Shown: positions 25,301 to 52,320 of the stretch, in pieces | How the letters are laid out: each line of letters opens with the position of its first letter | How positions within the stretch are numbered: position 1 is the first letter of the stretch | Assembly (NCBI GenBank): GCA_016617855.1 | Contig: JAECUM010028837.1 | Location: forward strand, 26,909 to 90,908 | Source of the DNA: Megalonaias nervosa | Lineage: Eukaryota; Mollusca; Bivalvia; Unionida; Unionidae | DNA length: 64,000 bases | Direction of reading: 5' to 3' | Program-made: the position numbers and the translations under genes | The notes under the pieces: model-generated | Databases searched by the model: none | What the model was told of the DNA's origin: nothing | The model's input: only the letters and a program-made list of their open reading frames with translations

Positions 25301-25634
25301 GCATATATACATTAAATATATTCCAGCTGTTTAAAACAATATGTATTAACCTTCCCTGTAATTCATTTTTTTTGGTTTTATCTTCAAAGTTTATATCTTT
25401 GGCGGATCGCCGGACAATTGTCGTCACCCCTGCTATGTTTTTTGCAGGGTGGTTACTAGTGATAACTATGGCATCCAAATCTTGCTCTAGTTTTTTCACT
25501 ATGTTTTCGGCCAACCCATGTGTCTCTTGTAACAAAATAATATCATACAATTTGGCTATTGCTATTAATTTTTCTACTTTATTTTTTATTCCATTAATAT
25601 TCATAGTCAAGATTTGAAGGTTCAAACCCTCCAT
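22400..25634 (-). pseudogene. LINE ORF2: endonuclease and reverse transcriptase
   Basis: Starts at 25634 (MEGLNLQILTMNINGIKNK; the Asn of the first catalytic strand). The endonuclease follows with LLQETH (catalytic Glu), FNVYMPAG and ILGDFNWV (Asp/Asn), and ADHKPVLLEI with the terminal His at about 24940-24956. RT is in 22852-24072 with FDQEKAFDKTEHDF (motif A), RQGCPLSMILY (motif B) and LHADDCTNF, the catalytic Asp pair, near 23560-23585. After a stop near 22852 the reading continues to CRLCN...HLILDCP at about 22575-22640, the C-terminal Cys/His motif of L1/Tx1 elements. Breaks near 25083, 24680, 24257 and 22852 show it is inactive. The FDQEKAFD and RQGCPLS forms favour the L1/Tx1 clade over CR1/jockey. 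Confidence 0.8.
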
Positions 25635-25700
25635 CTTGGCTATGTATAAGTGTTAATTTTCTTTTGATCTATAAATTTCATTAATACCAGAAATTTTCTA

Positions 25701-26854
25701 TCAGTGGGCAATTCTTTTCGCTCTGTAATCCAGGCTGATTGCTTTTCGTTGTGATTCTTTTCTTTGCGATTCTCTTGTCAGAGATATTGCCCTTTTTTCC
25801 TTTTCGTTCTTTGCCTCCTTGATTAGATCCATGATTTCCGGCTCGGATGGTGTCCTCGGAGTTGAGGCTGATCTCTTTCTTTTTAAAGGGAGAAATGGAG
25901 TTGAGGAATCTTTCTCCACTTCTTCCTGCATTTTCGGCGGCGAATCCATTGTCACTGATTCTTCTATTGTTTTATTAGTTTGGGATGTCATACTATCTGA
26001 GTTGTCCAAAATTTCTTTCCCCGAGTTTTGTTCTTTGGATCCAAAAGAGTTTGTTTTATTTTTCACTTGTTGGCTTTCTTTGATCTTCATTTCCTTTTCT
26101 CTCTGTATTTTCCTCGCTCTTGCTTTGGCTCTTTTTTTTCCGCCGAACTCGTCTGGCTTGCATCCTTCCAGTCTTCTGTATCTTTGGATGAAATATCCAG
26201 ACTTGAGTCCAGACTGTCAATCAGGGTTGTGGATTTACCTTCTACCACCTTTTCTATATTCGTGTCTTGATTGTTTGTCTGAGTTTTCTCGCCAGGTTCT
26301 GCATCCACTATCGTTTCCACTGGTTCCGGCACAGCTTTAGCTGCAGTGTCTTGCATTTTTTGGATTGCCGCTGCATATGTGTTCTTTTTGGGGCCTTGCG
26401 TCACTCCCTGATGCGAGCAATCTCTCTGCAGATGGCCTGTGTTACCGCATTTGTAACACTCTCTCGCATATTGGCAGCCTTTGTACCACGTTTTCACTAG
26501 GAAGCCCATAACATAAAAATTTGCAGGTATCTTCCTGGCATCCAATTCCGACAGGGTAATTATTCTTATCCCAGTAAGAACTTTAGGAAAACCCCAGTAC
26601 GTGGCCATTTGCTGTCCTATGGATTGTACCCCAAATTTTCGCTCTATTTTTTCTAGTAGCTCTTTTGTTGGCACTTCTAGTGGAAGTCCAGATATGTGAA
26701 CGTCAATTGATTTCTCCCCTAATTTCTTTATTAGGGGTGGTGGAGTGTAAATTTTCGCTTCTTTCCCTTTGATTTCAAGGAGTTGTCCAGTTTTGTACAA
26801 GGGTTTCTCTCCATGAGGGAAGATAAAGAATAGCCCTCCCCCTCCATTCTGCAA
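25701..26854 (-). pseudogene. LINE ORF1 protein with CCHC zinc knuckle (5'-truncated, frameshifted)
   Basis: The first part (26087-26854, 255 codons) begins without a credible initiator at the LINE/minisatellite junction. It contains one CCHC knuckle, CYKCGNTGHLQRDC, at about residues 133-146 (26417-26458). This is a nucleic-acid-binding protein of the retrotransposition particle. An acidic/basic tail rich in Glu, Lys and Thr follows. A frameshift near 26090 moves the reading to 25701-26090, a Ser/Glu/Lys-rich tail with a basic PLKRKRS patch that could act as a nuclear localisation signal. It ends about 65 bp before the ORF2 start. ORF1 proteins with CCHC knuckles are usual in the Tx1/L1 group. 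Confidence 0.7.
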
Positions 26855-26861
26855 ACCGTCT

Positions 26862-27352
26862 ATATCTATATGTGGTATTTATCATCACGTTTTTCAATCT
26901 ATATATGGTATTATCATCACATTTTTAAATCTTTATGTGGTATTTATCATCACATTTCTTGATCTTTATGTGGTATTTATCATCACATTTCTTAATCTTT
27001 ATGTGGTATTTATCATCACATTTCTTGATCTTTATGTGGTATTTATCATCACATTTCTTAATTTTTATGTGGTATTTATCATCACATTGCTTAATCTTTA
27101 TGTGGTATTTATCATCACGTTTATCAGCCTATAGGTGGTATTTATCATCACATTTCTTAATCTATATGTCATATTTATCATCACATTTCTTAATCTTTAT
27201 GTGGTATTTATCATAATATTTCTTAATCTGTATGTGGTATTTATCAACACATTTCGTAATCTACATGTGGTATTTATCATGAAGTTTCTCAGTCTTTATG
27301 TGGTATTTTTATCATCACATTTCTTAATATTTATGTGGTATTTATCATCACA
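26862..27352. repeat. 33-bp minisatellite, right block
   Basis: Same unit and register of variants as 20715-21765, about 15 copies; it continues the array interrupted by the LINE. Confidence 0.95.
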
Positions 27353-27479
27353 TGAGGATGTTTTTGATTATCTTAGACAAAAACAGTGTCATAAATTGCT
27401 TGCAAGATGTACATTTTACAGAGAGTAACGTTTATATATAATAGAACAATGGGGTTATCAATGTATTCTAAATTGCCAC

Positions 27480-32586: not shown

Positions 32587-32592
32587 ATAAAC
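32587..32592. other. Target-site duplication, left
   Basis: ATAAAC immediately outside the left inverted repeat; its partner is 45221-45226. Confidence 0.9.
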
Positions 32593-32885
32593 AGTAGTGA
32601 AGGGGGACGATATAGGGTCAATGGGAAACTACATTACAGACACCCACCCACCCCACCCCCGGACAATATGGCATCATTAATGTATGGCATCAAGGGAAAT
32701 AAGCATTAAAAGACCCCCTGGGACGATATGGCGTCAAGATTTATAGCGACAAGGGGAATGAGCATGACAAGACCCCCTGGGATGATATTGGGACAAGATG
32801 GATAGAGTTCATACACATCTATGGCACATTTTTATGAATAAATATCTTTTCGAGGCATATGAGTGGCTCTGAAAAGGGCCTATTG
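32593..32885. repeat. Polinton left terminal inverted repeat
   Basis: About 293 bp, aligned with the complement of 44932-45220 over its whole length. It contains internal ~55-60-bp subrepeats with CCCCCTGGGA(C/T)GATAT, TCAAG and A(A/G)TGAGCAT elements. Its inner end coincides with the histone-like hairpin at 32865-32880, and similarity stops a few bases beyond it. Confidence 0.9.
32865..32880 (-). terminator. Histone-type 3' stem-loop downstream of coiled-coil gene A, inside the left TIR
   Basis: Minus-strand reading GGCCCTTTTCAGAGCC: 6-nt arms around the histone loop TTTC, with one C-A mismatch in the stem. It lies 54 nt after the gene A stop and is followed by ACTCAT. The purine block CGAAAAGATA stands about 11 nt past the stem, where the U7-binding histone downstream element sits. 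No AATAAA is present on the minus strand nearby. Confidence 0.65.
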
Positions 32886-32933
32886 AGTTCTTCTTCTAGT
32901 TTATCCAGTTCTTCCACCAGCTTCTCACTTTCT

Positions 32934-33482
32934 CTATGATTCCTTTCTTCCTCTTCTTCTTTTCATCGTCTGGCATCCAGTCAGGATGTCCCATTGATCT
33001 AAATTTTCTTGCACTTTCATCCAGTTGTTGTTCAGTGTCTCAAACTCTTTTTTTTTCTTTCTGTTTTCATTGTCTTTCCTCTCTTTTGCCCAGGTATCTT
33101 CGATCTTCTTTACTTCTTCTTCCATCACCTTTCTCATCATGTCTTCAGCTATCTTTAATTACTCTAACCCCCACTGGACAAAAGACCACTCGGTGAAATT
33201 GGCTATGTCTTGTAGAACGCACCTCACTTGGATGACATTATCAAGGGCCTGCTTCAATGTCCCCACTCTCACATATTTAGAATGGATGAAGCCTCTTAAT
33301 TTCTCTACTTCCTCTTCTATCATTCCTTGCATTAGATCCCTGGCTACTTTGAGGCTGGTGACTTGACTGGTCACAAAGTCTTTGGTAACTGGATATCTCC
33401 ATTCTTTTTCAAGCCTTTCCACCACATAGGCTGCATCTACCATCCAGTACCAACTGTCTTTCAATTCGTTGAACAAATTCAT
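32934..33482 (-). pseudogene. Coiled-coil gene A of the Polinton left array (one nonsense codon)
   Basis: An unassigned protein of about 182 codons. I place the start at the ATG at 33480-33482, because the shared promoter has its TATA box at 33534-33539 and the frame upstream of this ATG would lie before the transcription start. A single in-frame TAA at 33159-33161 (codon 108) interrupts an otherwise continuous frame that resumes immediately and runs to 32934. Both halves are rich in Glu, Lys and Arg with heptad-like spacing; the second half has EEEVKKIEDTWAKERKDNEN. That block resembles EEIKKEQEEWTEKYRLQKQQ in gene C, so A and C are likely paralogues. Function unknown; a virion or DNA-associated structural protein would be a guess. 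Confidence 0.7.
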
Positions 33483-33490
33483 GTTGTTTT

Positions 33491-33570
33491 GACTAGTCAA
33501 CGCTGGGTAGCCAGACTGACAACCGCTACGCATTATATACGTGAAGCACGGACGGGAAGGAAAACATCCC
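33491..33570 (-). promoter_or_regulatory. Gene A promoter (shared left-array design)
   Basis: Minus-strand order: GGGATGTTTTCC at 33559-33570, TATATA at 33534-33539, GTCAGTCTGGCTACCC at about 33507-33522, then the palindrome TTGACTAGTCAA at 33490-33501 just before the ATG. The same four blocks in the same order and spacing precede genes B and C. Confidence 0.75.
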
Positions 33571-33591
33571 TTACACTCACTTCACATATTA

Positions 33592-33846
33592 TATACAATC
33601 CACACAAACGTACGCGAACGCATGAAACACACACTCTACTGTCCACACAGACGGGAAGAAAAGAAAAAAACACACCATATCTACTATCAAAAACTCCAAT
33701 GTCTTCTATCCACACAAACGTACGCGAGCGCATAAAATACACCTTAAATACTATCCACACAGAAGGGAAGAGAAGAAAAAAAAACACACCATATTTACTA
33801 TCAAAAACCCCAATATCTACTATCCACACAAACGTACGCGAACGCA
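33592..33846. repeat. Intergenic tandem repeat of the left array
   Basis: Units of ATCCACACAAACGTACGCGA ... ACGGGAAGAGAAGAAAA ... ACACACCATATCTACTATC repeat about three times and recur right of the gap at 34179-34322. This spacer accompanies each gene of the array. Confidence 0.85.
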
Positions 33847-33982
<136 letters not shown>

Positions 33983-34071
33983 CAGTAAAGAAGTGAGTGT
34001 TTATAGTCACAATACTTCACATTCACACAAATTGACAAAATGAATAGTCTCTCTTTTCTAGAGATCTGGTT

Positions 34072-34087
34072 AGCCCTAAGAAGGGCT
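34072..34087 (-). terminator. Histone-like stem-loop of the gap-truncated gene B'
   Basis: Minus-strand AGCCCTTCTTAGGGCT: perfect 6-bp stem with loop TCTT, a departure from the usual TTTC. It is followed by AACCAGATC and then CTAGAAAAGAGAGAC, a purine-rich block in the histone downstream element position. Confidence 0.55.
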
Positions 34088-34089
34088 GT

Positions 34090-34158
34090 TTTTTGTTTAG
34101 AATTCCAAATACACCTGGTTAATGATGACATCTCCCGGGGGGGGGGGGCACCACACAC
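34090..34158 (-). pseudogene. Gene B' 3' end, cut by an assembly gap
   Basis: The sequence 33981-34158 repeats 34411-34583 closely. It starts with ATCAGTAAAGAAGTGAGTGT, contains the hairpin and then reaches the last codons of a gene B paralogue, where it runs into a G-run and the 20-N gap. After the gap the sequence is already the spacer repeat, so the gene body and promoter of B' are absent from this assembly. Confidence 0.6.
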
Positions 34159-34178
34159 NNNNNNNNNNNNNNNNNNNN
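34159..34178. other. Assembly gap (20 N)
   Basis: Twenty Ns between a poly-G/CACACAC stretch and the spacer repeat. By comparison with the neighbouring unit (gene B plus promoter, roughly 600 bp), the real missing sequence is probably much longer than 20 bp, or the two repeat copies were misjoined. Confidence 0.9.
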
Positions 34179-34319
34179 TACTATCCACACACACGGGAAG
34201 AGAAGAAAACACACACCATATCTACTATCCAAAACTCTAATATCTACTATCCACACAGACGGGAAGAGAAGAAAAACACACACCATATCTACTATCCACA
34301 CAAACGTACGCGAACGCAT

Positions 34320-34322
<3 letters not shown>

Positions 34323-34400
<78 letters not shown>
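34323..34400. repeat. (AC)n microsatellite, second
   Basis: About 78 bp of AC followed by a short (AT)n, in the same array position as 33847-33980. Confidence 0.95.
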
Positions 34401-34412
<12 letters not shown>

Positions 34413-34499
34413 CAGTAAAGAAGTGAGTGTTTATAGTTACACTACTCTACATTCACACAAATTGGCAACTTGAATAGCCTCTTTTCTTGTGATCTGGTT

Positions 34500-34515
34500 A
34501 GCCCTAAGAAGGGCT
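34500..34515 (-). terminator. Histone-like stem-loop downstream of gene B
   Basis: Minus-strand AGCCCTTCTTAGGGCT, a perfect 6-bp stem, 20 nt after the gene B stop. It is followed by AACCAGATC and then ACAAGAAAAGAGG. The last block is very close to the sea-urchin-type downstream element CAAGAAAGA. The loop is TCTT, not TTTC. Confidence 0.65.
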
Positions 34516-34534
34516 GTTTTTCTTTGAACTCCAT

Positions 34535-35059
34535 TTATACCTGTCTAATGGTGGCATCTCCCAGGTCTGGCACCACACACGCATCGTCGGCTCCAGTCCT
34601 GTTCCCAACTGATGCGTGTGGCTGGTAACGCAGAGGGGTGGGTTGACTGGCTTCACTCTCCCAGTCTTCACTTTGAGGGATAGTGAAGACTTGTTCCCTC
34701 TGTCTTCTACGCCAGACCCGTGGATGATGTCTCCTTATCTCCTCCTCCCAGTTTTCAATTTCGGGGACCACAGGTCTTTGTACTGGTGGCAGAGGCTGTG
34801 GTACTGGTACTGGTTGTCGTGCTGGTACTGGTTGTGGAGGCGTCCTCACCTCAGGCTTGACCTCAAACAGATGTCTCAGTATGAGGTGAGGTAGGATCCC
34901 CCTCTTCTTTTCCTCTTCTTCTTTCTTCTTTTTTTCCTCATCCTCCTCTTCAAGCCTGGCAGCTTCTGCTATGGCCTCTATGGCCAGCTCATCTAAAATA
35001 CGCCTGGCATACTCCAGGTGTATTTCGAGTTCCAACAATTTGGCAATTCTGTTACTCAT
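34535..35059 (-). CDS. Coiled-coil gene B of the Polinton left array, 174 aa
   Basis: An intact unassigned reading frame. The ATG at 35057-35059 follows the shared promoter closely. Residues 1-50 form a helical, heptad-like N-terminus with a very acidic/basic run (LEEEDEEKKKKEEEEKK at about 35-52), a predicted coiled coil. Residues 70-100 are a Pro/Val/Gln-rich repeat (PVPARQPVPVPQPLPP), probably unstructured. The C-terminal part is charged with several Trp. It resembles genes A and C in its N-terminal helix and promoter but differs in the Pro-rich middle. It lies between the spacer/(AC)n and gene C, all on the minus strand and running toward the left end. Function unknown. Confidence 0.65.
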   Translation of the reverse strand: MSNRIAKLLELEIHLEYARRILDELAIEAIAEAARLEEEDEEKKKKEEEEKKRGILPHLILRHLFEVKPEVRTPPQPVPARQPVPVPQPLPPVQRPVVPEIENWEEEIRRHHPRVWRRRQREQVFTIPQSEDWESEASQPTPLRYQPHASVGNRTGADDACVVPDLGDATIRQV

Positions 35060-35067
35060 TGTATTAC

Positions 35068-35151
35068 TGTTGACGAATCAACGATGGGTAGCCAGACTGA
35101 CGATCGCTCCGTTTTATATCCCTGGAGCACGGACGTGAAGGAAAACATCCC
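35068..35151 (-). promoter_or_regulatory. Gene B promoter (shared left-array design)
   Basis: Minus-strand GGGATGTTTTCC at 35140-35151, TATA element in GATATAAAAC at about 35111-35120, TCAGTCTGGCTACCC near 35085-35099, then TTGATTCGTCAA at about 35070-35081, the imperfect form of the gene A palindrome. Confidence 0.75.
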
Positions 35152-35374
35152 CTGACACCAAAACTCACAATGTCCATATCATCACCAAAAAATATGGAAC
35201 GCGCGGACCTAAAAGAAACACTTACGTTAACTTTTGTTTACCTACAAACACAGACATACACTACAAGACAGAGAAACGAAGTGCTTGTAGATACACTTCT
35301 ACTTTTTTTAACATACAAACACACAAATTTGTTTTGGCAATTGAATTAGTATGTCTTTTCTAGAGTGTTGTGGT

Positions 35375-35390
35375 AGCCCTGAAAAGGGCT
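35375..35390 (-). terminator. Histone-type stem-loop downstream of gene C
   Basis: Minus-strand AGCCCTTTTCAGGGCT: perfect 6-bp stem and the canonical TTTC loop, 39 nt after the gene C stop. The 3' flank is ACCACAAC, the usual histone flank type, and CTAGAAAAGACA follows about 14 nt past the stem. Only the closing pair (A-T instead of G-C) departs from the metazoan histone consensus. Confidence 0.75.
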
Positions 35391-35428
35391 ATTTTTGTTG
35401 ACGGGGAGTGTTGGCAATCTTTTATTGT

Positions 35429-35785
35429 CTATGATTGTGTCCCCGTCTGGCGGCAGGCTTCCCTACAGGATGCGGTCTGCGTCTTCGGAAAGAGAAGGAG
35501 AACTCTTTTGTGTCTACACGACAGTCGACAAAAACCTCTATCTGGTTCCTGCCGTTGTTGCTGCTGCTGTTGTTGCTGTTCTCTCTGCTGCTTCTGAAGT
35601 CTGTACTTCTCTGTCCACTCTTCTTGTTCTTTCTTTATTTCTTCTCTGAAGAGTTCTTCTATCAGGTCTTCGGTCACTTTCAACATCCTGACATTCCCTA
35701 TCTCTTCAGGCTTCGGTTTCAGGTTTTGCCTGACACGATGTAAATTCACATAAGCTTCGTTCAGTTTGGCTAGTCTTGAAGGCAT
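35429..35785 (-). CDS. Coiled-coil / polyglutamine gene C of the Polinton left array, 118 aa
   Basis: An intact unassigned frame. The start is set at the ATG at 35783-35785 (MPSRLAKLNEAYV) because the TATA box is at about 35837-35845; the longer frame to 35851 would include promoter. Residues 40-75 form a charged helix, with KVTEDLIEELFREEIKKEQE similar to the second half of gene A. A Gln run follows at about 78-86, encoded by mixed CAA/CAG codons. The C-terminus is Arg/Cys-rich. It is the right-most member of the array, ends in a histone-type hairpin, and its upstream neighbour is the protease block. Confidence 0.65.
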   Translation of the reverse strand: MPSRLAKLNEAYVNLHRVRQNLKPKPEEIGNVRMLKVTEDLIEELFREEIKKEQEEWTEKYRLQKQQREQQQQQQQQRQEPDRGFCRLSCRHKRVLLLFPKTQTASCREACRQTGTQS

Positions 35786-35794
35786 CTTCGTAGG

Positions 35795-35876
35795 TTGACG
35801 AGTCAACAATGGATGGCCAGACTGGAGACTACCCCACTTTATATGGTTCAAACGCAGATGCGATGGAAAACATCCC
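35795..35876 (-). promoter_or_regulatory. Gene C promoter (shared left-array design)
   Basis: Minus-strand GGGATGTTTTCC at 35865-35876, TATA element CATATAAAGT at about 35837-35846, CCAGTCTGGCCATCC near 35812-35826, then TTGACTCGTCAA at about 35794-35805. Spacing matches the gene A and B promoters. Confidence 0.75.
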
Positions 35877-36014
35877 TACTGGGTTTTTGTTGGATCGGAA
35901 CGCTATGATAGCTAATGTCATGGTGAGAGATAGAGAGAGAAGTCAAAGAGCATTTATAATGATAAAGTTTTTTTAAAAACACACGACAGACACATTTTTT
36001 CAAAACACAACATT

Positions 36015-36020
36015 TTTATT
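36015..36020 (-). terminator. AATAAA polyadenylation signal after the protease gene
   Basis: AATAAA on the minus strand 47 nt past the protease stop. No histone-type hairpin lies here, in contrast to the left array 600 bp away. It may serve the protease, zinc-protein and capsid transcripts jointly, since no earlier signal is seen between those genes. Confidence 0.6.
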
Positions 36021-36066
36021 CAAACAAACAACAAACAAATAACAATTAACAATAATATCAAACAAA

Positions 36067-36624
36067 CTATTTTCGACACGGTTGACAACGTTGTGAAGTT
36101 AAGTTAGATTTCCACTGATGGAAGTCATGAGGCCGTTGATGTACACTACGTTTCCTACCTAAAGACAAAAGATAGCCATAACGGTCACAAAACCATCGAT
36201 CTACTTTCTCAGCGTTTCTAGAAGAGTTACGATCAAAATAAGTCAATAAATGTTCTAAAGGATATCCAAGACTGCGTTGATGAAGAAAGTACACACAATA
36301 TTGCCCACACACCATGGAATCTGTGCCTTGTAATTTTACTTTATTGAATCGTGTCGTCTGCGCATTTCTTCTCATAAAGTCGATGATATCGTCTTCCAAA
36401 GGCGGTAATCCATACGAATCAAAATACTCCACACAATCCTCTTTAGAGAAGTAGACGGTTACCCAGTGGGTTCCTGGGGGATGACTATCGTCCGTGTTGA
36501 TGACATAAGCTTGATGGTCTTGAGGTTTGCGATGATGTAGTTCATCTTTAGCGCACACGACAGGATTTCAAGAAGCAGTGTAAAAACTGTTGTTCAAAAG
36601 GTAATAAAGTTCCCAGGTATCCAT
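36067..36624 (-). pseudogene. Adenain-like cysteine protease (Polinton PRO), one nonsense codon
   Basis: Maturation protease of the C5/Ulp1-like fold that cleaves capsid and core precursors in Polintons and adenoviruses. The start is the ATG at 36622-36624; an in-frame TGA at codon 19 (36568-36570) breaks it, after which the frame is open to 36067 (about 185 codons in all, normal size). The catalytic set is visible: His in PPGTHW (codon 53), Asp in EYFDSYG (codon 69), Gln in KLQGTD (codon 99) and Cys in VCGQYC (codon 106, seven residues after the Gln as in adenain). The gene begins 15 bp after the zinc-protein stop. A TGA from CGA by one C-to-T change would explain the break. Confidence 0.85.
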
Positions 36625-36639
36625 TTTTGTTTTGATTTT

Positions 36640-37125
36640 TTACAGGTAATGATAAGTCATCAATTCAATTCTGACTTTTTGCTTGAAAGTCTCTGAAAAG
36701 TAACCATTTCTCTGTTTCGTCTCCGCACTCTGGGCTAAGAGAGCTTCGATGCAATGGATCTCAAGAGTAGTCAATCGAGGGGAGGAATGATCACGCAAGT
36801 CTTTATACCACTGATGCAACACTGCTTCTTCCGAGATGAGACCCAAAGCGTCGTCTAGATACTCGTCCAATTTTTCTTCTTGACTCATCATCATACATTT
36901 ATCGTGTTGAGTTTGACCGGGATGATCGTTTTGACATCCATAACAATCTTTCTTGGTCAATTCCGTAATTTTATCCGCCATGTGTTTAGCAAAACAGGAC
37001 ACTAAATGTTGTTCTTGTTCTGGCCATCTGGACGTGACCACTACGTCCGCTTCGTCTTTGACTTGGGGTTCTGCATCTACGGTATCATCCCATTCCATTT
37101 CCAAAAAGGGATAAGAGTCTTCCAT
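36640..37125 (-). CDS. Small zinc-binding protein of the Polinton, 161 aa
   Basis: An intact frame from the ATG at 37123-37125, with its own TATA box at 37166-37172. The N-terminus is acidic. Near residues 60-76 lies CYGCQNDHPGQTQHDKC, a compact Cys/His cluster likely to bind zinc. The C-terminal half is helical (EKLDEYLDDALGLISEE and LTTLEIHCIEALLAQS). I recall a C-x2-C...DHP-x-Q-x2-H-x2-C pattern in small proteins encoded near Polinton genes, but cannot name the family with certainty. Flanked by the capsid gene upstream and the protease downstream on the same strand, so a role in virion assembly or late expression is plausible but unproven. Confidence 0.65.
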   Translation of the reverse strand: MEDSYPFLEMEWDDTVDAEPQVKDEADVVVTSRWPEQEQHLVSCFAKHMADKITELTKKDCYGCQNDHPGQTQHDKCMMMSQEEKLDEYLDDALGLISEEAVLHQWYKDLRDHSSPRLTTLEIHCIEALLAQSAETKQRNGYFSETFKQKVRIELMTYHYL

Positions 37126-37165
37126 AGTTTATAATAGTCAAGAATGACTTCTCTCAAACTGTTGA

Positions 37166-37172
37166 TTTATAT
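37166..37172 (-). promoter_or_regulatory. TATA box overlapping the capsid-gene stop codon
   Basis: Minus-strand CATATAAATC about 42 bp upstream of the zinc-protein ATG. The capsid gene's own TAA stop (37167-37169) is part of this box. Confidence 0.6.
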
Positions 37173-37665
37173 GGTATTATCGAATTCAGCATACAGGATG
37201 ACTTTCACCGCCTCGGCGAGAGCTTCTGCAAACTGAAGTTCTACACGCAGTTGACCGGATTTTATAGGGTGGAAATGTTCCTCGTCGCTGCCTTGGTCTG
37301 GAGTGAAATCAAAGGCCCACAAATTGTAACCTACCTTGTAATCTTCGTACGTAATGCCGTGACTGGTGTTGGTTCCTAGCTGTCCGGTAGCTTCGTACAG
37401 GGACAAGTACGATCTCGAGTAACTTTTCTGGGCAAAGTTAGGTTCGAAGGTTCTGATACACAAGGTCTTGCCATTGCGACTGACTTCGATCCTGGACACT
37501 CTTTAGTGTTCAAACTGGAAAGGATTTTGATCGTGGGCTCCGTTGAGCAATGAGCATGTTAAAGGGATGGCGAAGATACAAGGCCTCCCAACTAGCACGA
37601 TCTACTTGTTCGTCAATGACTTTGACAGTGGAGGATGAGGGAGCAGAGACAGTAGAAGTAGCCAT
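37167..37665 (-). pseudogene. Major capsid protein (hexon-like), internally deleted remnant
   Basis: The last ~110 codons (37167-37499) match the C-terminal jelly roll of the Polinton/adintovirus major capsid protein: LWAFDFTPD, then HFHPIKSGQLRVELQFAEAL and ILYAEFDNTI just before the stop. Upstream, across an in-frame TAA at about 37504-37506, the same frame continues for a few codons (NPFQFEH). A frameshift then leads to a start region at the ATG 37663-37665 (MATSTVSAPSSS). The family normally has roughly 450-650 residues, so most of the middle is missing; whether the first ~50 codons are the true capsid N-terminus is uncertain. A TATA box lies at 37718-37726. With stop, frameshift and deletion it cannot make a capsid. 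Confidence 0.75.
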
Positions 37666-37717
37666 AGTAGTAGTGTAACAAAATGTCACTTGTGACACGA
37701 AGACAGACAAGACAAGA

Positions 37718-37726
37718 GTTTTTATA
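37718..37726 (-). promoter_or_regulatory. TATA box of the capsid gene
   Basis: Minus-strand AGTATAAAAACT, about 53 bp before the ATG at 37665 and just past the AATAAA at 37743-37748 of the preceding gene. Confidence 0.55.
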
Positions 37727-37742
37727 CTTTTTTCAGGACACG

Positions 37743-37748
37743 TTTATT
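37743..37748 (-). terminator. AATAAA polyadenylation signal before the capsid promoter
   Basis: AATAAA on the minus strand 8 nt past the 37756 stop; no hairpin here. Confidence 0.55.
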
Positions 37749-37755
37749 GCCATCT

Positions 37756-37944
37756 TTAAAAATGAACAACAGGAAAGACAAAAATACATAAAAGCCAAAT
37801 GGCTAAATACATGAATAAAAGACACATCAAAACGATCATAGCGGAATATAAACAAGTCTCTGTATAACATTTTTGGTGATCAAGTTTTGCTGTCCTTGGG
37901 ACAGTGTGTAATGTTCTTAGAGTCTCTACATTGGGTACAGTCAT
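37756..37944 (-). CDS. Small single-pass membrane protein, 62 aa
   Basis: The ATG at 37942-37944 overlaps the stop of the upstream frame (ATGA arrangement). Residues 35-58 are a strong hydrophobic segment (MIVLMCLLFMYLAIWLLCIF), a predicted transmembrane helix; the N-terminus is polar with two Cys. No signal peptide motif. Small membrane proteins occur in several Polinton lineages, but I cannot assign this one. It could alternatively be the frameshifted continuation of the 37941-38159 frame. Confidence 0.45.
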   Translation of the reverse strand: MTVPNVETLRTLHTVPRTAKLDHQKCYTETCLYSAMIVLMCLLFMYLAIWLLCIFVFPVVHF

Positions 37945-38159
37945 ACAGAGGTCCTCCCGGAATGGCCTATCGGGAATGTCGATAACGGTCCTGTCCTGTC
38001 CTGAAGGGAGTGGTTCTTTTCTTCTGGCACTGTCACTAACACAGGTTTAAAAGTTACTTTTTTAGCTGAACGTTTAAATTTAGGATTACAAATCTTGGGC
38101 ATAGTTTGCCACTTCTTTTGTCCAAGCCTCAAAGCCCATACTTTTCCAGTCACGTACAT
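37941..38159 (-). CDS. Small basic protein, 72 aa
   Basis: Starts at the ATG at 38157-38159. Lys/Arg-rich first half (NPKFKRSAKKVTFKP at about 26-40) and a Ser/Thr/Gly-rich end. Overlaps the next gene by 4 nt. A DNA-condensing core protein would fit the composition and place, but no family is recognised. Confidence 0.4.
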   Translation of the reverse strand: MYVTGKVWALRLGQKKWQTMPKICNPKFKRSAKKVTFKPVLVTVPEEKNHSLQDRTGPLSTFPIGHSGRTSV

Positions 38160-38186
38160 CTACCCAGTGAGGGTGCAAGCCACAAG

Positions 38187-38536
38187 CTACACATCTTCGG
38201 TACCTAAAAGTTGACGAATCTTTTTTTCCCGTAGAGGTCGAGAAGTATCAAGATGAAAGCGCAAAGCTTTTAACAGAATGAGTCTCTCGTGTACATTTAA
38301 AGGGACCACTTTTATGCCTTTTTGAGTGGTATGTACTGTTCGTAAACAGTCCACAAGGAATTGGCTGGTAACCGAAATCCCAGAAAGCAAGTCACTAAGA
38401 CACACAACTCACGTCGACCCCAATTCAATGGACACATTTCTTTTAAAATGCGATGGTAATCCTCTACCGTTTGAATATTGTCATTAATTTCCTTCCACGG
38501 AATCTGTAGTATCACGAATGATAAAGGTCGTTTCAT
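38187..38536 (-). pseudogene. Unassigned helical protein, frameshifted
   Basis: The first frame starts at the ATG at 38534-38536 (MKRPLSFVILQIPWKEI) and ends at 38312. The second overlapping frame carries the likely continuation (NVHERLILLKALRFHL ... REKKIRQLLG) to 38187. One frameshift between about 38405 and 38312 would join them into a protein near 115 residues. The C-terminal helix resembles helices in the next gene upstream (38606-39290), which may be a relative. Function unknown. Confidence 0.45.
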
Positions 38537-38605
38537 GGTAGTCAGTTTTTATAGCTCTTTTTGTCGGAGACAATAAGTGTACTTTCTGCATAGAGATGAT
38601 CGTAC

Positions 38606-39290
38606 TCAAGTGGCGAATCTAAATTGTTTAGTCGCTAACTTGCACATCACACACCGTTCAGAAGTTTCCTCTTGAACTAAGTTTAGATTGTGTAAAAGAT
38701 TTTGGTAACCCTCTAACTCTTCTTCTGGAATTCGTTGCAGTAAATCTACCTTGTTGTAAAAGAATCAGTAACAAACCAATCCTTCTCGCCCACGAGTAGT
38801 TGATCAATGTCTGACCACTGGAACACTTTCATCAGAATCAATCCTCTTATAGCATGTAGGTACCAGTGGTTTAAACATCGGTGACGTAACGGATGCAATT
38901 GTTCTTTGTGTTTCACTTGTATTTTGACCAACTCTCGGTAAATGCGTTCTCTCGACACCACAGGCAAACCACGAATGTTCTCGTGTAAAGTATCCATGAC
39001 CATGTCAGTCAAAAACTTCTCCTAGAGCGAAATTGACGGACGAAGTGAGTAATTTCTAACCAATGACATTCCAGGAAACGGTCAAGAATGGTAATAAAAT
39101 CTTCTGATGTAAACGGTCTAAAGCGGAATATTCGGATGAACGCACACTTTATCCAGAGAAATCTGATTTTTTTGTTGACTATTGTCAATTTCCTCTTGTG
39201 AATTTCTCGACTTAAAAGTTCCTCAGTCAACAATTGAGATTTTGCTCTGACAAGTACCTGCCAAACTTCCTTGTAGATCTTCTCTTGCAA
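38606..39290 (-). pseudogene. Unassigned helical protein(s) with a Cys-x2-Cys end, frameshifted
   Basis: Three successive open pieces: 39009-39290 (no ATG in frame; EKIYKEVWQVLVRAK), 38746-39012 (ERIYRELVKIQVKHKEQLHP ... GLILMKVFQWSDIDQLL) and a tail to the TGA at 38606-38608 containing ERCVMCKLAT. The first two pieces share a pattern (IY-x-E(V/L), basic helix, F-x-x-x-D), so this is either one frameshifted gene or two tandem paralogues that overlap. The Cys-x2-Cys could be part of a lost zinc site. A TATTTAAA box near 39328 may be its promoter. No known family recognised. Confidence 0.45.
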
Positions 39291-39433
39291 TTCTTTTGGT
39301 AATCTTTGAATATTATTTTTTAAGTGGGGTTTAAATACTTGTCTAGGTGTTGTCTAACGTTTGATTCCTAGCCAAGCTGGTTTCTTAAACGACATGGTAT
39401 GCCACTACAATGACGAGATCCCACTAAAGGTAG

Positions 39434-40017
39434 TTAGTGACAATCCGGAGACCATCGAGCATGTTCCAGGTAAGATTAATCTTTTTGTTCCCACTCGTGA
39501 AGTGACACACCGCAACTGAAGCACTTGACTTTATCCCCTTCGCCCAAGTAGATAAATCCGGCTCTAGCTAATTCTTCGGGGATAGGTCCTTCCAGATATT
39601 TTGGCCATTTTCCTTGGAAGGTTTGGAATCGACTTTCATTATCGCAGTATTCAGGCAAACGCACAGGGAACGAATATTCGTCTTTCACAGGTCCATTTCG
39701 ATGAGGGTACGGTGAAATCCGCACGCGTTTGCACAGTTTTTGATGACATCCACAGGGTGGTAGCCGCATGGTTTCATGATGGCATCCACCATGAAATCCA
39801 GTAAAGTGAAACGATGTACGATGACGAGTGGCATCGCTTTCGCATCCGTCAGGTTTGACACGCACAGCATCACTTTCTATGGTATACTCATAGCAAAATT
39901 CCCATGACGTGGTACTGAATCACTGAGGTTACAGCGTACGGCATCTCTGCCATCGCAAGGCAAAGCATCCCACTCGAGTTTTCTCTCGCTTGATACTTCC
40001 TGAGTGAAAGGATTCAT
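39434..40017 (-). pseudogene. BIR-domain (IAP-type) protein, multiply broken
   Basis: Inhibitor-of-apoptosis-type repeat, used by several DNA viruses to block host caspases or their activation. The start ATG (40015-40017) overlaps the polymerase stop by 4 nt. The BIR lies at about 39440-39640: ESRFQTFQGKWP opening, ARAGFIYLG (Gly-x2-Tyr), CFSCG (first two zinc Cys), then Trp in LHEWEQ. A TAA at about 39478-39480 then interrupts. In the same frame, at exactly the family spacing (Trp-x9-His-x6-Cys), the last zinc ligands appear in EHARWSPDC. N-terminal to the BIR, three frames must be used in turn, so at least two further frameshifts exist. A C-terminal RING is not seen. Confidence 0.8.
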
Positions 40018-43000
40018 CTTTCTCGCTTGGCAATGGAAGTCACAATGAACTGTATGTCTTGGGCGTTGTCCCTTTTTATATGCTGACCAATATCAGCTTG
40101 TCCGTACAGTAACGTGAAGTGGTTGGGAAGCCGTACTCGCTTCTGGTACACTATTTGATAGACTTTTTCCAAGGGCCGACTGACGATTTGGTGTGTGGGT
40201 AAACGTACAATCTTGTGCGGATCGTAGGTGGTCACTCTAAAATTTCGATCCTCTCCAGACTGCAAGGCTTCTTTCAGCACGCCAAATTTCACCACTTGAC
40301 CGGTGCGATAATTGAGAGTAAATCCTTTCACTTTACACTCGGTTTTGCACTTCTTTTTGTGGGTCTTGGTATTCGTAGCCGTAATTTTTAGGACGGCCAC
40401 TAGCAAAACATAAAATCTTGTCGTTGGGGTGCTCATCCGTCCAGGCTTCTAAACGGTCTCCTTCGATGTCCAAGTGACAGTGACCCAGGCGATCGATGTA
40501 GATATAACTGTCCGTGTCAAAATACAGCACACGATCTCCTAATTGGTGTTAGGCTTCGTACAGTTTTAAGCGAGCATCGGCTGTCATGTAAGCCGCAATG
40601 ATGTCATTCCCAAATTCGTCGGCTCTACAAAGTCCAGTTCTTCATCGTAATTGACTAAAATCAAGTCCTCACGAACGACGTCCACGTGTTTCATGTATTT
40701 GGTTTTGTCGTGAATCATCTGGAAGTAGCGGAAAGGTTCGGACAAATACTCCGTCTTGGGTAAACACGGTCGTTGTGCCATTTTGCCCCACAAGCAATTC
40801 AACATCACACTGGCAAACGATCGCCTTCCTTCGTTTTTCTCGACGTGGTCTAAAGTGATGCCTTCCTGCTCCCAGTATTTCTCTTTGAATTTCTTTTCGT
40901 CTCCGGGAGTGTGGCACCAGGAAGGATAGCCGCTAGCTTCTTGTTTCAGTTTCAAACAGTCATCTACGTAGTCTGCAAAAATGCCTTTCTGAGTCTCGGC
41001 GCCTTTGTGGTATTTTTCTGTCTTGGGAAAGTGGTAAATTTCGTACACTTCTAACAGTTTATACCCCATGTCCAGAGCTTTGAACAATTCCACGCTGACC
41101 CACGTTCCTCTCAAGGCGCGTTCTTCCTGAGTGTGCTGACATGTTTGTTCTTGGTTATACGTTTCGGCACAAGTACGACACAAGGGAAACATCAGTTTTC
41201 TTTGGCAATGGTGAGGTAAAACGGGATGGTACAAGTCCGTGGGAGGCAAGACTTTGTACTTAATCAATCCCTCGTATTGTCGAATGTTGTCCAGGTCGAT
41301 GTGTTCTGTCAGCAATTACGGGTGTCCTGCGGAAAAGTGACAATATTTGCACACGTACGGATACAGCGAATACACGTCCAAGTATCTGATTTCTTCTCCT
41401 TTCTCCTTGTCGGCTTGGTACAGCAAATAGGTGGCATTCGTCCGTCCTCCGTACAAACTGTCCCGTGGGTTCAGAGGGTCCACCAGCTTGTAACTTTCCA
41501 CGATGCGTTTAAACTCGGGATCGGTTTTCAATCGGTGACCGTACTCGTGTTCCCACATTTCCACCACTTGGTATCCTTGCTGTTCCAACTTCAAGCGCCG
41601 CTGACAAGTGGTCTGGTACAAGTCTTCCATGGTCCGTTCTAAAAACTGATTTTTAGTGCCACGTTGAGGGTAACAGATGGGATATCCGTGAAATAAGCAC
41701 CCGTTAAACTCGTACACTTTGTAAGGGTTTTCTAAGTCCCAGCTATCCACCGAATACGTTCAGATGGTCTTTTCGCCTCCTCCGATGCGAGCGTGTTGGA
41801 TCCATTTGTCTTCCTTGTTGCACAAGTACTGTAACCAGCGTAGGGCTTTGACCGAGTATTAACGTTTGACAACGTTCGTCGTTTGAGGGCTTATGACAGC
41901 TAGGGTGTTTTCGGGCATGAATCGTTACGGTACACTAAAGAACATGATTTGGCAATGGTGCAAGCTTCTTTGAAAGGATTGATCCCTCCGTGCTCCATGA
42001 ACAATTCTCGAACTTCTCCACAGCAACGCCGTGAAATGTCCACGTCGGAACGGCAATACTTTAACATTTCTTCCTTAAAGTCGAAGGGGTCCGTGGCGTG
42101 AGTCTGGTACCAGCGTAGAAATCTTCTCATTGTTCGGTACGCATCTTGTCGGTACCGTAATAGTGAGCCGCAGAAAAATGGAGTAGAACGGCGTGTTGAT
42201 TGGCTTCGTATTGAAAAAGTGCGGAAATAGCCTTTGGTCATTTCTGTCATTCCAAATGTTTTAGGCATTCGGCTCAAAGGCATGGCCAAGTAACTCATCG
42301 AATCTTTAAACTGCACTTGTCCCATTTGCATGGAAATGATTTTGGTTCCGTTCAAAGTCACTTTAAAACGTTCGGTAGTTTGTTCCGTATAGTATCTGAG
42401 AAGAAACTTTCCATCGTATCCCGAGAAATCGTGAGCAATCACTGTGGCATGGCTATGACAATCTCCATAATGTTCGATGTCCTCTTGACTCCACGTCTAG
42501 TCGATTGGGTCTGAGATCCATTGGGCAAAATCGGCCAACGTGTTCGGTCCCTGAACGATGTTTTCACGTCCTCCAGGAATCGTGCTGCAGTGATGGCAAT
42601 GAGTAAAGATAGGCTGTTGGATGCACTTCTCGCAGGCTCGAAGAGCCACGCAGAAATTAGGAATGGGAATACCGGTCTCTCGCATGCATTCGAAATCGAA
42701 AAAGATGAAATTCTCTTTCTTCTGGTCATCTTCCTCTTCAGGTTTGGAAAGGTATTTTTGAATGTAGCATTCGTGTTCCAAGTCCACGATTTGGCGACAA
42801 ATGTGATATCGCTTCTTTGCTGAACATAAATGCGCCTTGGTATTATTGCTACGTATCACTTGTCCACTTGTCCACAAGTAGGGCACAATTTCAGGAGCTG
42901 ACAAGCACTTTTCTGCTGTGAACCTTGCGTCTTCAGATGTTGTTGATAACAGGTGACAAGCTGGGCAATACACTTGTTCTTGTCCATCGTCCAGACAGGG

Positions 43001-43983
43001 TTTAGAGGCCAAGCATCCCTCACATTTTGATCCACAATTCATGTGTTGCTCTCAATTGTTGTAGCCATAGTCACATTTCTCACAGTCATAACCGTATCCC
43101 AGGAATCCGGTGATACTGGTGATGGCATCGAAATGTTCATCGTGATGATAGACGTGAATGTATTTTCCATCTTTGAAATTTTTGCCTCGGAGCAACAGAG
43201 GTCCGCACACTTCTTGAGGATGCACCTTCAAGGTGTCGCGCGGAGCCAAGACGTCTTGCAATTTTTGCATTTCAGGAATGCCACAGGGTGTGTCGTTGGA
43301 TAGCCCCGTTTGCTGTAGCAGCAGTTCTGCTTCTCTTCGTTATTTGGTTCGGTCCGATTGTTGAATAGTCTTCCAGGCTCGTTTCCATTCTACCGTGTCA
43401 TTATTGTCGACATACGTTCGTCCCACCACGATGGCACGGGTTAAACACATCTGATCTTGAGTGTTGTTAACTTGAACGATGCTGCTCTTGACGCTGCGAA
43501 GGTCGTCCACCAATAACACTTTTCTGCGTTGTCCGGTCCCTTGGGGAAGAAAAACGTTGGCCATGAACAGTGTCGCTTTCCATCGGTAATGTGAAACTTG
43601 TCGTTGGATTGTTGTACGTGTTGAATCTTGTCGATGACTTTGGAAGGTGTCAATTCTGCTGGGCTGCTAAACTCGATCCAAACTATCGTGATGAATGGAA
43701 AGTCTCAAGCGGTCGTCTTCTTTGGCTTCACATTGCTGTTTCATTGTGGTTAACAAAGAATCCCACACATCGGTGATGAACCCTCTGCTTTCTCCAGCGG
43801 TACGTCGGAGATGAAATCTTTGAAATCTTTAAACTTCACCGTGTACGTATAGGACGTGGTTCTAAATTTTCTAAAGGAGCGTTTGTCCGTCTCTTGAATG
43901 TGGTAGTACTTTTCAGGGTTTAGTGGTGATGGTGGACTTTGGTTTGGTGTAGATTCTCTGGACCTGGATTCTGGTTAACTCAT
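40014..43983 (-). pseudogene. polB: Protein-primed family-B DNA polymerase (Polinton PolB), multiply broken
   Basis: Replicates the element from its ends using a terminal protein primer. The start at ATG 43981-43983 is followed by a TAA as third codon. In order along the minus strand: an N-terminal segment to about 43050, a Cys-rich zinc region (42980-43042), Exo I FFDFECMRE near 42690, Exo II HDFSGYDGKFLL near 42410-42430, Exo III YCRSDVDI near 42040-42060, motif A DVYSLYP near 41360-41380, motif B NCLWGKM near 40780-40805, motif C YFDTDSYIYI near 40500-40530, and the C-terminus to 40014. All catalytic motifs survive. The frame is broken at eight or more places, including in-frame stops near 41760 and at 41316-41318. 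About 1,320 codons, the usual size. Confidence 0.9.
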
Positions 43984-44243
43984 GTCATCTTCAAAATTGC
44001 TGGCATGAATTTGAGCCAAGGTTCAGCTACTGTGCGAGGCGATAAGTCACGTTTCCGTCTCTTACTTTCTTCTCCTTTCTTTACGAAATGATGCGATCGT
44101 TTCCTCTTGAGTGCAAAAAGTCATATGACTACATTTGAAACGCTATGGTCACCTATATATTCACGTTAGGTCAGTGTATATATAAAGGGCTGGTGCCTTT
44201 CCTCCCAGTATTCATTTCACTCTCAAGCCGACGAGAGAGTTGG
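43984..44243. promoter_or_regulatory. Probable bidirectional promoter between polB and the zinc-knuckle gene
   Basis: The only divergent gene pair in the element. A strong TATATATAAA at 44177-44186 points right, 58 bp before the ATG at 44244. A TATATAT at 44154-44160 could serve leftward transcription toward polB, although that is about 170 bp from its ATG. Confidence 0.5.
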
Positions 44244-44522
44244 ATGAGCCCACACAGATCGAACTTCTCCCCCTCCTTTCGAGATAAAAGTGAAGATACT
44301 TGCTATATCTGTCAGGAGAAAGGGCGTTGGGCTACATAATGTCCAGACCGTCAAAAAAGGAAGACAAGTGTCAAAAGAGACAAAAGTCAAGATACCTGTT
44401 ATCATTGTCAAGAGAAGGGACATTGGTCTTTAGAAGGCCCTACGAAACAAAAGGAGCAGGAGATAGAAGAAGAGAACCCGACACGTCCAGAAAGAGAAGA
44501 AATGAAGACGCGAAAAAAGTGA
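44244..44522 (+). pseudogene. CCHC zinc-knuckle protein, right-end outward gene (nonsense codon)
   Basis: The ATG at 44244-44246 lies downstream of a strong TATA box. The frame encodes two CCHC-type knuckles in tandem: CYICQEKGRWAT followed by an in-frame TAA (44337-44339) and then the fourth Cys, and later CYHCQEKGHWSLEG. In the first the His is Arg and the stop sits inside the knuckle; in the second the last Cys is Gly, so neither is intact. A Lys/Glu/Arg-rich tail ends at TGA 44520-44522. It is probably a nucleic-acid-binding protein. It is the only plus-strand gene of the element, and its transcript would run to the hairpin at 44937-44952. Confidence 0.6.
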
Positions 44523-44931
44523 GGAAGAAAAGGAGGAAGAACCTGTGAAAGTGAACAAATTCAAAAAAACAGAGAGAGTGAACAAACACAAAGAAGAAGT
44601 CTATGAACTTTTTAAAGTGTTGTGTTGTGTTGTGACATTGGATTGTAAAATTTGTACCAGAATAGACCAGGCAGAAAAAACGTAAGTGTCTCCTGGTTTT
44701 GATTTTTTAGAATAAGGACCTACACTCATGCACTCACACACGTACATTATGCATGGACAATCATCCGCATTACCGATACGACTGTTTGGAAAAGAAGGAT
44801 CTATGTGGAGAGAAAAGGCTGTCTGAAACGAGTCCTCATCTACGGACCAGAGGTTAGGCGAAGTTTGAGGAAGAGAAGAAGATCAGTAAGATGCCATCTA
44901 TGTTAACGGAATAGTGTTAACAAAAGAGAAC
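44523..44931 (+). other. 3' region of the right-end gene
   Basis: No long frame. It holds Lys/Glu-rich remnants, a short Cys/His cluster in one frame (CMDNHPHYRYDC near 44750-44785) and AAAAGAGAACCCAAA just before the hairpin. It may be a long 3' UTR or the decayed end of the coding region. Confidence 0.35.
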
Positions 44932-45220
44932 CCAAAGGCCCTTTTCAGGGCCACTCATATGCCTCGAAAATATATTTATTCAAACAAATTTGTCATAGAT
45001 GTGCATGAACTCTATCCATCTTGTCCCTATATTGTCCCAGGGGGTCTTGTTATGCTCATTCACCTTGCCGCTATAAATCTTGACCCCATATCGTCCCCGG
45101 GGGTCTTGTAATACTCATTTCCCTTGACGCAATAAAATTTGACGCCATTTCCTCAGGGTGGGGGTGGGGGTGTCTGTAATGTATTTTCCTATTGACGCTA
45201 TATCGTCCCCCTTCACTACT
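44932..45220. repeat. Polinton right terminal inverted repeat
   Basis: Complement of the left repeat; inner end at the hairpin 44937-44952. Differences from the left copy are scattered substitutions and small indels, so the two ends have diverged since insertion or are not homogenised. Confidence 0.9.
44937..44952 (+). terminator. Histone-type stem-loop in the right TIR
   Basis: GGCCCTTTTCAGGGCC: perfect 6-bp GC-rich stem with TTTC loop, preceded directly by CCCAAA and followed by ACTCAT. Stem, loop and 5' flank match the metazoan histone mRNA consensus fully. CCTCGAAAATATATT follows about 14 nt past the stem in the U7-site position. Confidence 0.75.
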
Positions 45221-45226
45221 ATAAAC
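45221..45226. other. Target-site duplication, right
   Basis: ATAAAC immediately outside the right inverted repeat. Joining the flanks at one copy restores a continuous GACATGAC-type short repeat. Confidence 0.9.
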
Positions 45227-51289: not shown

Positions 51290-51890
51290 CCTGATGTTGA
51301 AACTGTAAATTCCACACCTATGAAACAACATCCTCACTGAATGAGCCGTATCAAACAGGAATGTTTGAAAAAAGAAGTTTAATATTTGCTGGTATGTGAT
51401 TTCATGGAACCGAGTAAAAGTAAGTGAAGTTCACCGTGGATTCTTATACCGAAACCATTTAATAGTTTTCGCAAGTGCACTGACCATAGAAAATTGCATC
51501 GTGTGACCGAAACAGGCTGATTGCCAAATTTTCTATAATTGTTGAAACCCTGACACATGTTTTAAGCCAGAAAGTCAAAGTCTCATTGGTCTGAGAAACG
51601 TCAGAGACTTATGACAGTTGAAAGCCATAGTTGAGAGTGGACCAGTTCTTTCAGTTCCAAATGTTTCTCAATCATTTAAAATGTCTGTTGATGCGAGTAA
51701 TGTTGGGATTGGTACAGAGTTGATTCAAGAAGGCAAAATTGATGTAGATCATCCAGTGTGTTATTTTTGAAATTAATTAAATAAGCAACGGAAAAAAAAC
51801 TATTCTACAATCCAGAAGGAATGTTTGGTTTTGATATTGGCAATGCAAACCTTTGAAGTGTATGTTAGTTTAGCTCCTTGTCCGTTTATT
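51290..51890 (+). pseudogene. Reverse transcriptase / RNase H remnant of Gmr1-like element 2
   Basis: KQHPH-type start near 51320, SSPWILIPKPFNSFRKCTDH at about 51428-51490, then a gap in similarity. At 51680-51770 VDASNVGIGTELIQEGKIDV precedes DHPVCYF. An open frame from 51825 (ILAMQTFEVYVS) leads into the amplified motif at 51882. Palm motifs with the catalytic Asp pair were not found, so part of the RT is deleted. Confidence 0.65.
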
Positions 51891-52286
51891 GTATTTCGTG
51901 ATGACAACCCCATTTCATTCATTGGGCCGTTTATTGTATTTAGTGATGACAACCCCATTTCATTCATTGGGCCGTTTATTGTATTTAGTGATGACAACCC
52001 CATTTCATTCATTGGACCGTTTATTGTATTTAGTGATGACAACCCCATTTCATTCATTGGACCGTTTATTGTATTTAGTGATGACAACCCCATTTCATTC
52101 ATTGGACCGTTTATTGTATTTAGTGATGACAACCCCATTTCATTCATTGGGCCGTTTATTGTATTTAGTGATGACAACCCCATTTCATTCATTGGACCGT
52201 TTATTGTATTTAGTGATGACAACCCCATTTCATTCATTGGACCGTTTATTGTATTTAGTGATGACAACCCCATTTCATTCATTGGA
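51882..52286 (+). repeat. 45-bp minisatellite derived from the RNase H motif, 9 copies
   Basis: Nine exact-length units starting at 51882 and every 45 bp thereafter, nearly identical. Each reads PFIVFSDDNPISFIG (first unit R for S) in the RT/RNase H frame. The family motif at this place is (P)-I-x-V-Y-T-D-H-N-P-L-x-F-(L/I). The array is in frame, so the host frame stays open to 52328. Confidence 0.9.
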
Positions 52287-52320
52287 CCGCAGTCACCAAC
52301 GAGAAACTCATTAACAAACA

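Follow-up and report, generated by a model that had tools for sequence, protein, structure and literature searches.

A Polinton-like element of 12,628 bp in the bivalve Megalonaias nervosa carries, with the small genes at both of its ends, five copies of a signal that resembles the 3' end of metazoan replication-dependent histone mRNAs. The element lies in a stretch of 64,000 nucleotides (nt) of contig JAECUM010028837.1 (assembly GCA_016617855.1, positions 26,909 to 90,908 of the forward strand), which as a whole is called the window here. Each copy combines a hairpin with a downstream purine block of U7 type, a candidate for pairing with U7 small nuclear RNA (snRNA), and each stands in the sense orientation shortly after a stop codon. 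Judged from the letters of the window, it is close to certain that the signal is real and of histone type, and there is strong support for an SLBP/U7-type signal in a Polinton-like element. We consider it probable that the small end genes, while the element was active, gave rise to mRNAs that were processed by SLBP and U7 and lacked poly(A).

Hairpins, purine blocks and stop codons

Sequence, structure, spacing, orientation and position of the five signals can be read directly from the window. The hairpins are named after their first position, and re-reading of the window confirmed the coordinates and strands that a sequence-only reading of this stretch had given for all of them. In sense orientation, hairpin 32865 (32865-32880, minus strand) reads GGCCCT TTTC AGAGCC with a single stem mismatch, hairpins 34072 (34072-34087, minus) and 34500 (34500-34515, minus) are identical and read AGCCCT TCTT AGGGCT, hairpin 35375 (35375-35390, minus) reads AGCCCT TTTC AGGGCT and hairpin 44937 (44937-44952, plus) reads GGCCCT TTTC AGGGCC. 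The architecture of a 6-bp stem and a 4-nt loop is perfect in four of the five and carries one mismatch in hairpin 32865. The TCTT loop of two hairpins and this mismatch had been noted before, as had CCCAAA 5' of hairpin 44937, ACCACA 3' of hairpin 35375 and ACAAGAAAAGAGG downstream of hairpin 34500, and all were found again. At positions 1 and 3 of the loop every copy has T, and positions 2 and 4 vary, in agreement with SLBP recognition. Three hairpins have A-U and two have G-C as their outermost stem pair, so that both sides have changed and pairing is kept; across the five, four stem pairs are invariant and one cell is unpaired. When folded by themselves, four of the hairpins have energies between -9.8 and -11.4 kcal/mol. 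An intrinsic terminator was rejected as an explanation, as the sense strand shows no T run directly after the stems.

The purine block is present downstream of all five hairpins, and GAAAA starts 14, 14, 14, 15 and 14 nt past the stem (hairpins 32865, 34072, 34500, 35375 and 44937, respectively). The form GAAAA(G) described earlier has to be amended for hairpin 44937, where GAAAAT takes its place. The copies at 34072 and 34500 contain AAAAGAG, those at 32865 and 35375 contain AAAAGA and that at 44937 contains AAAAT.

All five stems follow a stop codon in sense orientation, at distances of 53, 9, 19, 38 and 30 nt in the same order, with the frame uncertain in three. At hairpins 34500 and 35375 an open reading frame (ORF) is open up to the stop. 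At hairpins 32865, 34072 and 44937 the stop distance varies with the frame chosen, because the flanking ORFs are frameshifted, truncated or cut by an assembly gap; hairpin 34072 adjoins a gap of 20 N (34159-34178), which makes the gene body there uncheckable. In four of the five copies, neither AATAAA nor ATTAAA occurs between stop and stem. Within 160 nt past the stop, the hairpin motif was found at none of the eight other minus-strand ORF ends examined, and the motif therefore appears to mark a class of genes.

An independent test for the histone family was an Rfam scan of both strands of the window with 4227 families at E ≤ 10. Five of the 14 matches listed belong to RF00032, the stem-loop of the histone 3' untranslated region (UTR), and these are exactly the five hairpins; the list contains no further RF00032 match in the window at this threshold. 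Hairpin 44937 scores 39.1 bits (E 6e-08), above the curated gathering cut-off of 34 bits. Rfam matches to SCARNA7 and mir-297 were below cut-off and were rejected, those to SCARNA7 lying on GT repeats. Such a motif is short, which is what an origin of the palindromes by chance has in its favor. The core pattern, with up to one mismatch, was seen five times against 0.08 expected in 100 shuffles or 0.045 in 1500 shuffles. With GAAAA required to start 12-16 nt past the stem, five occurrences stand against 0.00067 expected, that is one occurrence in 1500 shuffles. The core pattern was fitted to the five hairpins post hoc; the Rfam model is independent of them, and its best E of 6e-08 points the same way. 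We therefore give chance next to no credence, in line with the earlier view that it does not easily explain the hairpins. A covariance model built from the five recovers them at 60-63 bits, with the next match at 13.5 bits, and a search with it revealed no sixth, decayed copy.

Proposed processing and its alternatives

The sequence-only reading had ascribed the transcripts to the SLBP/U7 machinery. Its histone-type signal, hairpin plus U7-type purine block in a Polinton-like element, holds at the level of sequence; binding of protein and snRNA, cleavage, the missing poly(A), the coupling to S phase and a spread among Polintons are what we infer. We propose that the carrier is a decayed endogenous DNA virus of an animal, of Polinton/Maverick type, in which left-end cassettes of promoter, short ORF and 3' signal, and one outward-pointing gene at the right end, would carry the 3'-end signal of host replication-dependent histone genes. 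While the element was active, the hairpin would have been a binding site for SLBP and the GAAAAGA(G) block, 14-15 nt further on, a pairing site for U7 snRNA, and CPSF73 would have cut a few nucleotides past the stem, leaving short mRNAs without poly(A). Processing, stability and translation of these mRNAs would then peak in S phase, when the DNA element could also replicate. Since one copy lies at the inner edge of the terminal inverted repeat (TIR), the same signal may end outward transcription at both ends. The broader reading, that an animal Polinton lineage runs its accessory genes through SLBP/U7 as poly(A)-less, S-phase-linked mRNAs with the TIR signal ending outward transcription at both ends, we favor by a narrow measure.

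Several observations weigh against this picture. Hairpins 32865, 35375, 34500 and 34072 score below the 34-bit cut-off of RF00032 (29.1, 25.8, 23.0 and 21.5 bits). The left TIR hairpin (32865) folds weakly, at -4.5 kcal/mol, and 66 of 200 shuffles fold equally well or better. Covariation rests on one pair and gives mild support, its score being matched by 47 of 500 shuffles. The sites are five, as described earlier, but they are not five independent events and represent about three lineages (TIR, 34500-type and 35375). The cassette at 35429 has AATAAA at 35421-35426 (minus strand), from the third nt past the stop and upstream of the hairpin. The cassette stems start with A, unlike any of the 12 strings by which PMC7807067 located human histone stem-loops. 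In the clam Lucina pectinata, PMC6210712 gives purine-rich elements near the palindrome for H1_A, H2A_X, H3 and H4 only, and these elements lie at shifted positions, either at a greater distance or, for H4, ahead of the palindrome (a comparison of positions and not of letters). The carrier, for which TIRs, a 6-bp duplication and PolB pieces agree with the earlier designation as a Polinton, is atypical or incomplete: neither a retroviral-type integrase nor a packaging ATPase was found in 30 open pieces scanned with Pfam, from which a heavily broken gene could escape.

The relatedness of the copies leads to a first alternative, in which the 3' flank of a host histone gene was picked up or recombined and then copied passively along with cassettes and TIRs, unused. 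Hairpins 32865 and 44937 are a pair, one on the inner edge of each TIR, hairpins 34072 and 34500 go back to one tandem duplication with common flanks on both sides and a duplicated repeat tract beside it, and the TIR, 34500-type and 35375 lineages are still alike in part of their flanks. Copies related in this way, by TIR pair, tandem duplicate and common cassette flanks, are what capture would produce. The 30 ORF pieces gave no Pfam match to a histone family, although an old capture would leave none. However, although their flanks have in large part diverged, all five copies keep GAAAA, the first flanking A, positions 1 and 3 of the loop and, but for one mismatch in the left TIR copy, the stem, and every copy lies just past a stop, on both strands and in two separate gene sets. 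Passive capture is therefore unlikely in our view, if the least unlikely of the alternatives.

In a second alternative, SLBP binding to the hairpin would serve to stabilize, export or translate the mRNA, and the 3' ends would be formed by ordinary polyadenylation or by a dual route. The AATAAA of the 35429 cassette fits such a route, and poly(A) use or dual 3' ends are possible there; human H2A.X is reported with dual 3'-end processing in PMC7807067. Against it stand the fixed distance of 14-15 nt to the purine block, which is a requirement of U7-dependent cleavage, and the four copies in which AATAAA and ATTAAA are missing between stop and stem. We hold this alternative to be improbable. AATAAA also occurs at one of the eight other minus-strand ORF ends, that of the protease (36015-36020, minus, from the 47th nt past the stop), where transcripts of the main gene block may be polyadenylated. 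The arrangement of the motifs suggests two classes of 3' ends, with a poly(A) site behind the main block of genes and ends of histone type for the small genes at the termini. As seven of the eight other minus-strand ORF ends show neither hairpin nor AATAAA within 160 nt, this split is tentative, and the AATAAA before the hairpin of the 35429 cassette speaks against a clean one.

By analogy with giant viruses and virophages, finally, the hairpins could be terminators of a viral kind without relation to histones, a view to which hairpins behind stops in a relative of DNA viruses would be congenial. However, the stem sequence and the loop match the histone family specifically, and so do the A-rich 5' and AC-rich 3' flanks and the purine block. 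When IMG/VR was scanned for exact matches to a TTTC-loop pattern, 20 stretches came up; a perfect 6-bp stem was present in none of them, nor was a GAAA block downstream (one, L020, was too short for the block). We consider viral terminators very improbable. These 20 stretches, and a further IMG/VR hairpin match that lies inside an ORF of 784 amino acids (L001), were judged to be chance matches. Processing of the small end genes by SLBP and U7 is thus the reading that we prefer.

The carrier element and its surroundings

The features of the element are compiled in Table 1. TIRs, AG..CT ends and a 6-bp target-site duplication are hallmarks of Polintons, and from its sequence the element likely belongs to this group. 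The two TIRs (about 300 nt) are identical at 265 of 296 aligned positions. Two of the three PolB pieces are above the curated cut-off of DNA_pol_B_2, that with E 3.7e-05 is below it, and the frame is broken; a Protein Data Bank (PDB) search with one PolB piece gave nothing useful. The protease ORF has a second match to the cysteine protease S273R (E 0.0021), which we take to be the African swine fever virus protein. The BIR-domain ORF is apparently shortened, as it covers profile positions 1-53 of 70. ORF 37167-37502 recalls the C-terminus of a capsid protein by general resemblance, and a PDB search with it returned no match. Two adjacent small ORFs at 38746-39353 (minus) look helical and alike by eye, and that at 39012-39353 (minus) has a weak PHROGs match to phrog_7650 of unknown function (E 0.00055). 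Scans with PHROGs and NCBIfam otherwise gave weak matches to unrelated or unknown families. No relatives were confirmed by single-protein scans of IMG/VR (PolB, capsid-like piece and protease) or by PolB scans of GTDB contigs and phage records. One IMG/VR contig (L002) matched a degenerate capsid pattern and was judged a chance match, its ORFs being unrelated by eye.

Table 1 Predicted features of the Polinton-like element of M. nervosa (positions in the window)
Feature	Position	Strand	Remarks
Polinton-like element, 12,628 bp, ends AG..CT	32593..45220		TIRs and target-site duplication
Left target-site duplication ATAAAC	32587..32592		
Right target-site duplication ATAAAC	45221..45226		
Left TIR, hairpin at inner end	32593..32895	+	
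Right TIR	44924..45220	-	
Candidate histone-type 3' end, left TIR copy	32840..32885	-	stem 32865-32880, loop TTTC, GAAAAG; RF00032 29.1 bits
Candidate histone-type 3' end, tandem-duplicate copy	34048..34092	-	stem 34072-34087, loop TCTT, TAGAAAAGAGAG block; RF00032 21.5 bits
Candidate histone-type 3' end	34476..34520	-	stem 34500-34515, loop TCTT, ACAAGAAAAGAGG block; RF00032 23.0 bits
Candidate histone-type 3' end	35351..35395	-	stem 35375-35390, loop TTTC, flank ACCACA, CTCTAGAAAAGA block; RF00032 25.8 bits
Candidate histone-type 3' end, right TIR copy	44932..44977	+	stem 44937-44952 GGCCCTTTTCAGGGCC; RF00032 39.1 bits
Left-end cassette gene, in-frame stop at 33159	32934..33533	-	
Promoter-like block, repeated (GGGATGTTTTCC, ATATAA, CAGTCTGGCTACCCA)	33489..33570	-	
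Small charged ORF, 174 amino acids, cassette gene	34535..35059	-	no Pfam match; stop 19 nt before stem 34500-34515
Promoter-like block, repeated	35070..35151	-	
Coiled-coil-like ORF (by eye), cassette gene	35429..35851	-	no Pfam match; stop 38 nt before stem 35375-35390
Promoter-like block, repeated	35795..35876	-	
Adenain-like (C5) protease, weak match	36067..36558	-	Pfam 18 bits (cut-off 21.3)
BIR-domain ORF (inhibitor-of-apoptosis)	39476..39865	-	Pfam E 6.6e-16
PolB pieces, frameshifted (DNA_pol_B_2)	40584..42496	-	Pfam, three ORFs: E 3.1e-10, 3.7e-05, 4.1e-10
Degenerate gene region with CCHC zinc knuckle piece	44139..44906	+	zf-CCHC E 9.3e-05

The hairpins sit with small genes at both ends of the element. 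At the left end these are three cassettes with a common promoter-like block and small, charged or coiled-coil-like products. ORF 35429..35851 comprises 140 amino acids counted from TTG, with its first ATG at about 35785. The second half of the 32934..33533 product matches the 35429 product over 24 amino acids, 9 of them identical (E 6e-05 in a single comparison); another comparison of cassette products was unconvincing (best E 0.016). In the three promoter-like blocks GGGATGTTTTCC, ATATAA and CAGTCTGG are present, and a short GTTGA..TCAAC-like palindrome lies behind them, ahead of the start codons. The idea that these blocks are histone-specific was dropped for want of support. At the right end, the last open frame of the degenerate region (44703-44903, plus) ends 30 nt before the hairpin.

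Elsewhere in the window, pieces resembling a non-long-terminal-repeat retrotransposon, with reverse transcriptase, endonuclease and CCHC ORFs, lie at 22852-26854 (minus), and an open, animal-type ORF of 355 amino acids for a G-protein-coupled receptor of the rhodopsin family lies at 58416-59483 (minus), as would be expected with an animal as host. A tRNA-like match at 19797-19869 (plus; 32 bits, cut-off 29) is perhaps a tRNA-derived short interspersed element. Tandem repeats of 33 nt form one family at two places 5-6 kb apart (20728-21797 and 26814-27443), and repeats of 45 nt and 39 nt occur at 51792-52379 and 57268-58070, respectively.

Comparison with known histone 3' ends and Polintons

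An earlier report of histone-type 3' ends in Polintons was not found among the papers listed in a limited search of the open-access literature. The word "histone" is absent from the main texts of PMC11071308 and PMC9683012. In PMC11071296 it occurs twice, one passage concerning a histone-like protein. PMC1924863, from 2007, describes replication-dependent histone genes as the only known source of mRNAs that lack poly(A) and end in a hairpin. If our reading is true, the element would clearly exemplify how a parasite (a DNA virus or transposon) ties its expression to the S phase of the host through mRNA 3' ends, and it would explain how libraries selected for poly(A) could overlook such transcripts. 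Hairpin and purine signal together provide a sequence test that is applicable to every animal Polinton.

The signals share with metazoan histone 3' ends the 6-bp stem with C-rich 5' arm and G-rich 3' arm, the TTTC or TCTT loop, the A-rich 5' flank, the AC.. or AAC.. 3' flank, the short 3' UTR and the purine block at 14-15 nt past the stem. Hairpin 44937 agrees letter for letter with a string from the set of 12 in PMC7807067, and since three of the 12 have the loop TCTC or TCTA, TCTT appears close to the natural range of loops. According to PMC7026596, the AAAGAG core of mouse H2a pairs with CUCUUU of U7, and cleavage in mammalian extracts takes place at a fixed distance from the purine element; this core is contained in the AAAAGAG of the 34072 and 34500 copies. 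In Caenorhabditis elegans, histone mRNAs end 3-6 nt past the hairpin and the loop is CTTT, as stated in PMC1924863, and for Lucina pectinata a palindrome near the stop of histone mRNAs is given in PMC6210712. Unlike metazoan histone 3' ends, the signals described here are predicted from sequence and stand behind genes other than histone genes, in a mobile viral element. Three of their stems start with A-U, and two of their loops are TCTT.

With Polintons, Mavericks and adintoviruses (Polintoviricetes) the element shares TIRs, AG..CT ends, a 6-bp duplication, PolB pieces and a weak match to a C5-like protease. It differs from them in that scans of 30 open pieces revealed neither an integrase nor a packaging ATPase, and in the histone-type 3' ends that its terminal genes appear to carry.

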